Assembly: GCA_947627655.1 (NCBI GenBank)
Contig: CANQWW010000004.1
Coordinates: 1 to 46,485 of the forward strand
Source of the DNA: an uncultured Acinetobacter sp.
GTDB taxonomy: Bacteria; Pseudomonadota; Gammaproteobacteria; Pseudomonadales; Moraxellaceae
Direction of reading: 5' to 3'
Length of the DNA stretch: 46,485 bases
Each line of letters starts with the position of its first letter. The first letter of the stretch is position 1. Shown here one piece after another: positions 31,084-35,707 of this stretch. The position numbers were made by a program, and so were the translations under genes. The notes under the pieces are model-generated. The model saw only the letters and a list, made by a program, of their open reading frames with translations. It ran no database searches and was not told where the DNA came from.

Positions 31084-33849
31084 TTAGAAATTGACTTTCA
31101 GGTTTAAATAATACTGACGCAGGCGTGGATCAGAGTACTTGCTGATATACGTTTGTGACATATCCTCTTCATAGTCACTAAATAGGTTCTTGATCCCAAA
31201 GGTGAATTCTGGTGATCCAAACTTCGCCGCTTTCCCTCCATTCATACGATAACGGGCAAAGACATCATGGTACATCTGCGCATCTACCGTATCTTTGCCT
31301 TGTAGTTTGATTGCGGTTTCATTTTTCAGATCATACTTGCCATAGTACTGCATCCCCCAACCAAAGCCCCAGGCATCCGTTGCCTGTAAAAATGCCGAAG
31401 CATTAAAGCGATGTTTTAACGGACCATTGCTATCCGAGTTTGGATCATTGAGATAACTGGTTGCTGGACTGTCTAAACTTTCTTTTTGCAGGAATTTTTC
31501 GGTCCACGTATAACCTGCATTCAGGTTCAGATCCCCCATCAAGGTATCTATGGCATAGGAAATCTGTGTGTCAATCCCGCTGGTTTCCATCCATAAGGCA
31601 TTAAACGGCGTAACAATTACAGTATTCAGCGATCCATCTGCATTGCGAACCACACGGTCACCATATAGATCCTGCTGTGCATTCAAATCCAGAATGCGCT
31701 GCGCACCGAGTGAGGTAATATTATTATTTTTCTGGATATTAAAATAATCTACAGACATACGTAGATTAGGTACGGATTCTGGCGTAAAGACCAAACCTAC
31801 CCCAAAAGTTTTGGCTGTTTCCGGCTCCAAACTTGGATCACCACCACCGGTGGTATAAATATCCTGTGTTGCACCTGTCAGAGGATCCGTAACGGAGGTT
31901 AATGAAGAAGACAGTACCGGCTCGTCCAGTTGTGCTGCCGTTGGCACGATAAAACCTTCGCTATAGGAAGTCCGCAGCATCCAGCTGTCATTTGGAGCAA
32001 AACGCAAACCGACTGTCGGTGAAGTCTGGCTAAAGCTTGCACCATTGGTTTTAATATTAAAGTTTTCATAACGTGCAGCAAGCTGCAGGTCTAATAATTT
32101 TGCCCAAGCAAATTCCTGTTTTGGCGAAATAAATGGAATATTGAGTTCAGCATAAACAGCTTGAGTGGTGGTTTCTTTATGGGTAAACGGCGCATCTGGA
32201 TTATTAAATGAAGTCGTTTCCGAACGGCTACGGCTTTCCCAGTCAGAATGACCTACACCTGCGGCCAGCATAATATCGCCCGCGTACCAGTTATACACTG
32301 GGCCATGTGCACGTACGTTAAATTCTCGGGTGGTCTGATCTGTTAAGTTTTGTGCCACGCCCCAATAACCACGATTCAGATCAATACCATGAGTAGTGAC
32401 ATCATTTAGCGGATTTAAAGCACCAGAAGCCAGGTCTTCATTAAACTTGGTGGTCCCCACAGTGGGACGACGTTGATAAGTAATGGTCTTAAAGGTATTT
32501 GTCCAGGAATAATCCCCCAGAATTTGCCAGTCTTCTGTGGGCTTAAACTCGAAACCTCCAGCTAAACGGCGAGATTTAGCATACATTTCACGGTTACGTA
32601 ATGCCAAACCATCGGCATAGTCTGGAGAATAAGTCACCAGAATGTCCTTACCAAAGGGATTATTTGGATTATCCTTACTGAGGGTCACCGTACCAAAACC
32701 ATGATAGTTGCCGGCACTTTCCACAAACTGTTCTTCATAGCCACCTTCAGCATAGATATTCAGCTTATCGCTAAAATCACGGTTAATGCTGACACTAAAG
32801 GCTTCATTATCTTTGGCTCCCACCAGGTTCTGCGCTCCAGAATCGCCCCCAATGCCATTTGCCAGTCCTAAAGCATACTGACCTACAGTTTCATTAAATG
32901 GCTGAACACCATCACTGGTTTGATAGCCTTTGGGTACATAGGCATAACTTGGACCACTATTGCCAATGAGAGCAGAACCATCTACGGTACGGATATTGGT
33001 TAAATGTCCCATCGGTGGATTGACTGACTGAGTTTGTCCCTTAGAAACCGTAGTACCGTAATATTGGTCTGGATTATTTTCCAGAATGCGTTGCCGCTCT
33101 TTTAACTTAAATGGACGATCTTTCGCTTTCAGCCCATTGCCTTCCTGTTTTTGTGCGGTAAATAAGACTTGCGTACGTCCATCTTCCAAGGCAAAACCGG
33201 AAGTCAGATTGACCGTTTTTAATGCGGTATCTGAATTGACACTATTGTCATAACGCACATTCACTTCAGTACCGACATAATCTCGACGCAGAATCACATT
33301 AATCACGCCACCCAAGGCATTACTGCCATACAGTGCAGAAGCTGAACTTGGAAGAATCTCAATACGTTCAATCGCAGAAAGCGGGATACTGTTAAGATTC
33401 TGCTGGTCGGTCATTTCTGACACGCCACGGCCACCCACTCCAGCCCCCTTACGGCCATTAATCAGCACCAGTGTATGCGAAGCACCTAAACCGCGTAAAT
33501 TGATTTGACTGGTATTGCCAGTCCAGCCGCCTGCCGTTTCTGCCCCGACTGAAGTCGTTGCCGTCGATACTTTCTGCAATAACTCATCCACTGTGGTGGC
33601 ACCAGAATTCTCAATTTTTTCACGTGTGATGATCTGATAAGCTTGCGTGTCATTTTCACTACGAACCAGATCCATATTGCCTGAAAAAGCTTTCTGCTCA
33701 GCAGCTTGGACTGAAATAGTGGGCAATACGGTTGCCTCATCAGCATAGGCTGCTGCCACTCCTCCACTTAAAGCCAGTAAAATTGAATGTTTTAATAATT
33801 CTGCAAATCTATTCTTGTGAAAATGCACAGTGCAATCGATAGGAGGCAA
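31084..33849 (-). CDS. TonB-dependent outer-membrane receptor
   Basis: Plug domain (ISQINLRGLGASHTLVLINGRKGAG-like, IERIEILPSSASALYGSNALGGVINVILRR), C-terminal beta strand ending NF. Confidence 0.95.
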   Translation of the reverse strand: MPPIDCTVHFHKNRFAELLKHSILLALSGGVAAAYADEATVLPTISVQAAEQKAFSGNMDLVRSENDTQAYQIITREKIENSGATTVDELLQKVSTATTSVGAETAGGWTGNTSQINLRGLGASHTLVLINGRKGAGVGGRGVSEMTDQQNLNSIPLSAIERIEILPSSASALYGSNALGGVINVILRRDYVGTEVNVRYDNSVNSDTALKTVNLTSGFALEDGRTQVLFTAQKQEGNGLKAKDRPFKLKERQRILENNPDQYYGTTVSKGQTQSVNPPMGHLTNIRTVDGSALIGNSGPSYAYVPKGYQTSDGVQPFNETVGQYALGLANGIGGDSGAQNLVGAKDNEAFSVSINRDFSDKLNIYAEGGYEEQFVESAGNYHGFGTVTLSKDNPNNPFGKDILVTYSPDYADGLALRNREMYAKSRRLAGGFEFKPTEDWQILGDYSWTNTFKTITYQRRPTVGTTKFNEDLASGALNPLNDVTTHGIDLNRGYWGVAQNLTDQTTREFNVRAHGPVYNWYAGDIMLAAGVGHSDWESRSRSETTSFNNPDAPFTHKETTTQAVYAELNIPFISPKQEFAWAKLLDLQLAARYENFNIKTNGASFSQTSPTVGLRFAPNDSWMLRTSYSEGFIVPTAAQLDEPVLSSSLTSVTDPLTGATQDIYTTGGGDPSLEPETAKTFGVGLVFTPESVPNLRMSVDYFNIQKNNNITSLGAQRILDLNAQQDLYGDRVVRNADGSLNTVIVTPFNALWMETSGIDTQISYAIDTLMGDLNLNAGYTWTEKFLQKESLDSPATSYLNDPNSDSNGPLKHRFNASAFLQATDAWGFGWGMQYYGKYDLKNETAIKLQGKDTVDAQMYHDVFARYRMNGGKAAKFGSPEFTFGIKNLFSDYEEDMSQTYISKYSDPRLRQYYLNLKVNF

Positions 33850-33892
33850 TTTTTATTACTCAAGTTAACTAAAACCGCACACACCATAATAT

Positions 33893-33919
33893 AAATGATA
33901 ATTATTTTCATTATTATTT
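33893..33919. promoter_or_regulatory. Fur-box-like sequence upstream of TonB receptor
   Basis: AAATGATAATTATTTTCATTATTATTT matches GATAAT repeats of the Fur consensus. Confidence 0.7.
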
Positions 33920-34167
33920 AATAAATATATGTTATTAGCTCCAGTGATGAGCGGATCTAAAATGTTTATAATTTAACCAGAGATTGCCATCAATTCGGCT
34001 GAGAGATTCTGCTAAACATTATTCCTTTATGATTCAACGCGATGTATAAAGAGATGATCAGTGGTAACGGATTAAAGATCTATGATCCTGACCCGCAGCT
34101 ACTACGAGAATAAAAAATTAAATATAAACTTTTGTTTTTTAAAAAATATTGTATTTATCCCGCTTAG

Positions 34168-34551
34168 GTGTTTCATGGCGAGTCTGGCCAGAATGCTTTG
34201 GCAATTTTAGCGTTGTATATACCCACTTTAACCATTGGGCTAAAACAGGTATGTAGCATTATGAATAGTCAAATCGTGCTGCCAGCCAAAAGCCATACCA
34301 TTCATCCACATCAAGAAGATGCCCCATATCTTGATCAAGCAAGACATCTAATTGACAACTTTTTGTTCAAATTCAAGCATTATCATGCTATTGCTACTAG
34401 TTCTAATCCATTGGCTCGGAACGCTTGTCAGCAAGCTACTTTACCTCTACTCAGTTCTGGCTTAATTGATGACACGCCTTATATTCCGGTATATCTTGCT
34501 TTTAGTTTGGCACTCGCCCGCTTCAGTTCGTATTGGTATTCAGGCAAATAG
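34168..34551 (+). pseudogene. IS5-like transposase C-terminal remnant
   Basis: YLDQARHLIDNFLFKFKHYHAIATSSNPLARN resembles the IS5-family C-terminal DDE region (RHxIENxFxKLKxYRAIATRYDKxARN); no N-terminal domain. Confidence 0.65.
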
Positions 34552-34964
34552 GCCTGTAACAGCCGAATATTTGCTTGTGCTTCATCCTGTTTCAAGTGGC
34601 TATTTTCCAGCATTTTTTGTTGTCTATTAAGCATACTGATCAGCTGTAGGTATTTGGGTTTCCTGCCATGCTGGATGGAACTTAACATATTGGAAAGATC
34701 GACAGAAAATTGATAGCGTTCATGAATAAAGGGCTGAAACTGCTCTAACGCATCCCCTTTACGCTGCATGACCTGACTGACGCTTTCACTGTCTTGCATT
34801 CGAACCAGGTCTGTCTGATAATGATGGAAAGATAATACTCCCTGCTGTATATAGTTAAGCTCTAGGTCTTCCCGGTAGATTTCACGATGCATCTGGTAGC
34901 CAATCAGCCACAATAATAAAAACAGACTGACGATACTCAATAGATAATTGCCCCTTTCAATCAT
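34479..34964 (-). CDS. Membrane-anchored coiled-coil protein of unknown function
   Basis: One N-terminal TM then helical sequence; GGAGG upstream of the ATG. Confidence 0.65.
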   Translation of the reverse strand: MIERGNYLLSIVSLFLLLWLIGYQMHREIYREDLELNYIQQGVLSFHHYQTDLVRMQDSESVSQVMQRKGDALEQFQPFIHERYQFSVDLSNMLSSIQHGRKPKYLQLISMLNRQQKMLENSHLKQDEAQANIRLLQAYLPEYQYELKRASAKLKARYTGI

Positions 34965-35055
34965 GCTGTACCTCCAGAGAACTCACGTACAGGAAGTAGC
35001 GATTGAAAAAACACAGCAATAAACCAATCACACAATATGCCGTAACGATGTTCAT
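34957..35055 (-). CDS. Possible 32-aa membrane micropeptide (not in supplied track)
   Basis: ATG..TGA reading MNIVTAYCVIGLLLCFFNRYFLYVSSLEVQHD; GGAG upstream; stop overlaps the start of the 161-aa ORF (ATGATTGA). Confidence 0.5.
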   Translation of the reverse strand: MNIVTAYCVIGLLLCFFNRYFLYVSSLEVQHD

Positions 35056-35160
35056 GAGCAATGCTCCAATTTTTTTATTGTTATTTTTTTATTATTAAAG
35101 TCACTTCAAGTGTCTTTGCATAAAAACAATATACAAACACAAAAAATTGTGTAGTGCTTT

Positions 35161-35211
35161 CCGACCAAAAGAAAGTCCCAGAATTGCTACTGGTCGGTAA
35201 TTCCGGGACTT
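35161..35211 (-). other. Interleaved inverted repeats (pseudoknot-capable) downstream of ybaK
   Basis: CCGACCA (35161-35167)/TGGTCGG (35191-35197) interleaved with AAGTCCCAGAATT (35173-35185)/AATTCCGGGACTT (35199-35211). Confidence 0.55.
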
Positions 35212-35239: not shown

Positions 35240-35707
35240 CTATGCATCAATGATGTCTACAAAAGCTGCGCCGAGTACACGTGCCAGATCTGTAGGTTTT
35301 AAGCCAATATCCAGACCACGCTTGCCCCCACTGACATACATTTTTTGCAAGTCTTCTGCAGAAGCATCAAGCACGGTTTTAAGACGTTTCTTTTGCCCAA
35401 CCGGACTAATCCCACCCACCAGATATCCGGTTAAACGCTCTGCCTGTTTCGGATCTGCCATTTGCAGTTTTTTACAGCCAAATGCCTGGGCAACCTTTTT
35501 CAAATTGAGCTGATGATGCACCGGAAGAACAGCGACATAATAATTTTTTTCGTCAGTCACCATTAAGGTCTTAAAGACTTCATGCCCATCCAGTCCCAGT
35601 TTTTCCGCAGCTTCAAGACCAAAACTTTTCGCATTGGCATCATGTTCATATTCGTGAATGCTGTATTCGATTTTATTGGCTTTCAAAAGTTTACATGCTG
35701 GGGTCAT
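35240..35707 (-). CDS. ybaK: Cys-tRNA(Pro)/Cys-tRNA(Cys) deacylase YbaK
   Basis: [40 protein letters not shown] motifs; probable start MTPACK at 35707. Confidence 0.92.

Follow-up and report, generated by a model that had tools for sequence, protein, structure and literature searches.

A 32-codon open reading frame overlapping an orphan membrane protein gene in Acinetobacter is probably the stub of a deleted beta-propeller gene and may serve as a translational leader

Whether a short open reading frame (ORF) with its own ribosome-binding site encodes a protein, or is the remainder of a gene that has gone, is the question raised by a 46,485-nucleotide stretch of DNA from an uncultured Acinetobacter (the window; genome G000, 80% complete). 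On its minus strand, an ORF of 32 codons carries TTGGAGCATTGCTCATG at its start, with a GGAG site just 5' of the ATG, and its 3' end runs into the start of a 161-aa ORF as ATGATTGA, a spacing of -8 nt in which the stop/start junction reads NTGNNTGA (Table 1). The original prediction described both ORFs correctly and went on to propose a transmembrane (TM) micropeptide, translationally coupled to the 161-aa protein and forming with it a two-part envelope module. Relatives of the locus were sought in 176 Acinetobacter genomes.

Table 1. Positions of the features discussed, numbered from the first nucleotide of the window
Feature	Position	Strand	Description
Plasmid-matching DNA	34176..34481	+	Matches unannotated stretches of Acinetobacter plasmids; abuts the 3' end of the coil gene
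161-aa orphan 'coil' protein	34479..34964	-	N-terminal TM helix and helical C-terminal domain; relative of the gene found 3' of the propeller elsewhere
32-codon stub/leader ORF	34957..35055	-	ATG at 35055, stop at 34957, translation MNIVTAYCVIGLLLCFFNRYFLYVSSLEVQHD followed by the stop; begins at the former start codon of the proposed deleted beta-propeller gene; overlaps the coil gene start by -8 nt
Initiation block ATTGGAGCATTGCTCATG	35053..35070	-	Shine-Dalgarno (SD) sequence and start codon; holds the inverted repeat GAGCA-T-TGCTC
Promoter/operator-like box TCGGAAA-N20-TTTGTATATTG	35127..35164	-	Common to the propeller gene upstream region
YbaK-type Cys-tRNA(Pro) deacylase gene	35240..35707	-	TIGR00011, 196 bits, above cut-off; upstream synteny anchor, present in all related loci

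The 161-aa 'coil' protein does look membrane-anchored and helical, as had been predicted. An AlphaFold2 model built from three sequences has a mean pLDDT of 70, with most of residues 81 to 150 near 90. The genus search returned five orthologues at 54-56% identity plus many distant ones, and A. schindleri CIP 107287 and Acinetobacter sp. HR7 are two of the species that carry the gene. Eleven family members share the invariant residues G100, P103, Q115, E128-A129 and L140-P141-E142, and purifying selection still acts on the gene in relatives (dN/dS about 0.09-0.20, where dS is measurable). Sequence searches of Pfam, NCBIfam and the PDB with the coil protein gave no family or relative, and a fold search with the three-sequence model gave no hit reaching E<=0.001, its weaker matches all being generic helical bundles.

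The small ORF behaves differently. Its five relatives (30-34 codons) have an ATG at the equivalent place and end in an overlap with the coil gene, of -8 nt in G187, G188, G154 and G123 and of -4 nt in G169, where a 1-nt insertion shifts the frame of the small ORF, the kind of change that the original prediction had itself set against a micropeptide. The encoded peptides (e.g. MNVVMLHNVNFVFQKFTVFQFLNLNRVNLEVAYE and MNIVIRLNAVRPFLSFGDPLLYGFNLEVADE) resemble each other little outside the first four or five codons and an EV encoded by the downstream SD, and at ~50% DNA identity between clades no other stretch of the locus is as poorly conserved as the ORF. A clearly hydrophobic core occurs only in the window (max KD15 2.59) and in G123 (2.27); the peptides of G187, G188, G154 and G169 are not clearly hydrophobic. 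Identity between G123 and G169 is 82% in the small ORF versus 93-95% in the upstream DNA, the coil gene and ybaK, and dN between G154 and G123 is 0.166 in the small ORF, 0.076 in the coil gene and 0.027 in ybaK; the dN/dS of the ORF itself (0.30-1.36) is uninformative with so few codons. Thus neither of the marks of a micropeptide, a conserved peptide under purifying selection and a conserved hydrophobic segment, is found: the initiation site is kept and the encoded peptide is not.

Nor is an open frame of this length rare by chance, since, when the spacer is dinucleotide-shuffled, the frame stays open into the overlap in 28% of shuffles for the window and in 10-52% for the five relatives. Counted within the 46-kb window only, SD-led overlapping small ORFs of 15-60 codons number two, this one included; the other, at 1924-1977 (17 codons), also overlaps by -8 nt and precedes the ORF at 972-1934. 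What goes beyond chance is the conservation of the SD/ATG block across six species.

Comparison with more distant Acinetobacter genomes suggests where the ORF came from. The same chromosomal slot in G108, G033, G166 and G140 holds a gene whose ~417-aa product combines propeller repeats of the YVTN/PQQ type with a signal-like segment at the N-terminus; a coil homologue follows after a spacer of 58-64 nt (58-70 nt overall). The 130 nt 5' of the small ORF align with the 130 nt 5' of these propeller genes, start codon on start codon, with z-scores of 6.8-15.8, and the score is reached by 0 of 300 shuffles in any of 16 comparisons. An intact gene therefore stands at the equivalent syntenic position in relatives, with matching upstream DNA and start codon, and the distance from the ATG of the small ORF to that of the coil gene (88-97 nt) is compatible with the propeller-coil spacer of 58-70 nt plus about ten codons. 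The box TCGGAAA-N20-22-TTTGTATATTG is present in exactly two copies in the window's own genome, one before the small ORF and one before an intact propeller-coil pair on contig C97, and it also lies 5' of propellers in other species. The small ORF is thus probably what is left of the 5' end of a beta-propeller gene that was otherwise deleted.

As reconstructed from these comparisons, the ancestral locus would have read ybaK, an exported YVTN-type beta-propeller (~417 aa) and a single-TM helical coil protein (~160 aa); in the ancestor of the six species, a deletion would have removed the propeller body and fused what remained, the promoter, SD and start codon, to the coil gene. In a tree built from eleven neighbouring proteins, concatenated, a split with 0.993 support sets the six genomes with the stub apart from the others, which makes a single deletion most likely; ybaK, a short gene, did not by itself resolve the split. 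The ORF body resembles neither the 5' nor the 3' end of the propeller gene clearly more than shuffles do, so the deletion junction cannot be placed; fewer than ~30 nt are expected to remain, in a fast-evolving stretch. Loss of the propeller would probably have been tolerated because of a second pair at the lon/zapA locus: in the window's own genome the intact pair lies between lon/5-FCL and zapA (contig C97, L041). G169 has no propeller at its lon locus either.

The two partners are otherwise tightly linked. Of the 176 genomes, 42 have a coil gene or a propeller and 40 of these have both (Fisher p=2.5e-37, uncorrected for relatedness); G169 has the coil gene only, and G153 the propeller only, in broken form. 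In its usual setting, this co-occurrence suggests, the coil protein probably anchors or assists the exported propeller. The envelope module that had been proposed is unsupported; the usual partner of the 161-aa family is an exported beta-propeller that is missing from the locus. The propeller itself is old: 29 further genomes of the order carry relatives at 43-51% identity. None of the 11 loci examined in other genera has a coil homologue beside the propeller, and a literature search on the propeller in Acinetobacter found nothing relevant. Decay of the pair may be under way in several other lineages: frameshifts split the propeller at different places in G096 and G098, and a TAG interrupts the coil gene of G100 (L081, L082, L023). 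The propeller-coil spacers (L037 5012-5072, L038, L039, L040 and L041) hold inverted repeats of varying sequence, such as AAAAGACAGC...GCTGTCTTTTT in L037, which are possibly attenuators or partial terminators.

If the peptide has no constrained sequence, the remaining question is why its start has been kept. A 17-nt core, TTGGAGCA(T/C)TGCTCATG, precedes the ATG in all six orthologous loci. Between the three clades, 17 of 20 columns are invariant in the SD/ATG block, 14-16 of 20 in the promoter box and mostly 1-8 of 20 in the ORF body. From this retention we infer that ribosomes still start at the stub and reach the coil gene. The ORF has its own ribosome site (GGAG, ATG), a conserved initiation site and a stop within coupling distance of the coil start, and the chances are about even that it works as a translation-coupled, sequence-indifferent leader for that gene. 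Ribosomes would still initiate at the stub start, read about 30 codons of unconstrained sequence, terminate on the coil gene start and feed the coil gene by termination-reinitiation. For a leader indifferent to its peptide, a frameshift such as that of G169 would be tolerable as long as the ORF still ends on the coil start. The fuller version of this reading is somewhat more tentative: selection across the clade may have kept the promoter, ribosome site and start codon of the lost gene as a bicistronic leader of natural origin in which the peptide does not matter, with the orphaned partner inheriting the expression of the lost gene. At the level of sequence, stub translation, coupling and any benefit to the coil gene are all putative.

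The translational coupling of the original prediction is plausible, in that the six loci agree in where the small ORF starts and in a stop that overlaps the coil gene, by -8 nt in five of them and -4 nt in the other, even though the predicted micropeptide is not upheld, the peptide being about half unalike between clades and clearly hydrophobic only in the window and G123. Stop/start spacings of -4, -1 and -8 are enriched in bacteria (review PMC12548453). The -8 overlap is partly explained by the fact that the coil protein has an invariant Glu3 codon, which makes it weak evidence of selection for coupling, and the 161-aa ORF has a strong SD of its own (CTGGAGGTACAGCATG) at its start, 34964, so it need not depend on coupling.

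A serious rival, if a rather unlikely one, is that the ORF is a passive scar on which no selection acts: it may be translated but would play no part in expression of the coil gene, for which only the promoter would matter. The fast-evolving body, the strong SD of the coil gene and the tolerated frameshift all fit such a scar; the conservation of the ~25-nt block around the stub SD and ATG, which is at least that of the promoter box across clades whose ORF bodies are ~50% identical, argues against it and for the leader. An improbable third reading is a regulatory upstream ORF or hairpin, in which the GAGCA-N-TGCTC repeat or ribosome behaviour would tune coil translation on a signal. The repeat lies over the SD in all six loci, is absent from the propeller loci and is predicted to form a 4-bp stem there, but its pairs are invariant across the six loci and thus give no covariation support, an Rfam search over the region gave no match, and the ORF has no conserved codon run on which ribosomes could stall. 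The SD/ATG block was also considered as a repeated operator and rejected: the exact copy occurs just once in its own genome, and the one match of the 17-nt core elsewhere among the 176 genus genomes, in G061, has no homologous gene nearby. A functional membrane micropeptide acting with the 161-aa protein is highly improbable, for although the ORF, its SD and the overlap recur in all six loci and two peptides have a hydrophobic stretch, the peptides are dissimilar, four of six lack a clear hydrophobic core, one is frameshifted, and the ORF changes faster than the DNA and genes around it.

The leader would have parallels among known systems. Like translationally coupled upstream ORFs (PMC12548453; Huber et al. 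2019, PMC6728339), it has a stop that overlaps the downstream start at enriched spacings, -8 nt in five species and -4 nt in G169; unlike them, the upstream ORF is an apparent deletion stub with a non-conserved peptide, and its coupling is putative. Bicistronic design (BCD) expression leaders (e.g. PMC5995908) likewise place a short cistron, equipped with an SD of its own, before the main gene. In the Acinetobacter stub locus, the SD of the main gene sits inside the first cistron. Unlike BCD leaders, the putative leader is natural and would have arisen by gene loss. The deleted partner belongs to the YVTN/YncE-type beta-propellers (TIGR02276 repeat, PF21783, TIGR03866), of which an intact copy remains on C97; propellers P0001 and P0002 score below the full-length cut-offs of PF21783 and TIGR03866. 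Unlike loci of that type, the window no longer encodes a propeller. The locus illustrates how small-ORF screens can mistake an SD-led, hydrophobic, overlapping short ORF for a micropeptide, and how a cross-species comparison of the locus tells a protein from a leader or scar. It offers a candidate natural example in which the start of a lost gene may be reused as a translation lead-in, and it brings to light an uncharacterised propeller-coil gene pair with very tight co-occurrence in Acinetobacter.

Downstream, the surroundings of the coil gene differ between the window and its relatives. In the five orthologous loci, convergent genes follow that we take, from their sequences, to be tusE/tusBCD-like, and beyond them presumably galE and then fumC-like genes. 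The gap between the coil gene and the tusE-like gene is 3.5 kb in the window versus 124-271 nt in seven related loci, so that the region 31084-34481 looks like an insertion. It contains a TonB-dependent receptor gene (31084-33849, minus strand) and the plasmid-matching stretch, which by appearance is an IS5-like transposase remnant (weak NCBIfam IS5 hit, E=0.1). At 34479-34490, the plasmid-like DNA starts at the 3' end of the coil gene and seems to have replaced its last codons, the protein ending in ..RYTGI in the window versus ..RYA, also terminal, or the continuing ..RYSYYET.. in relatives.
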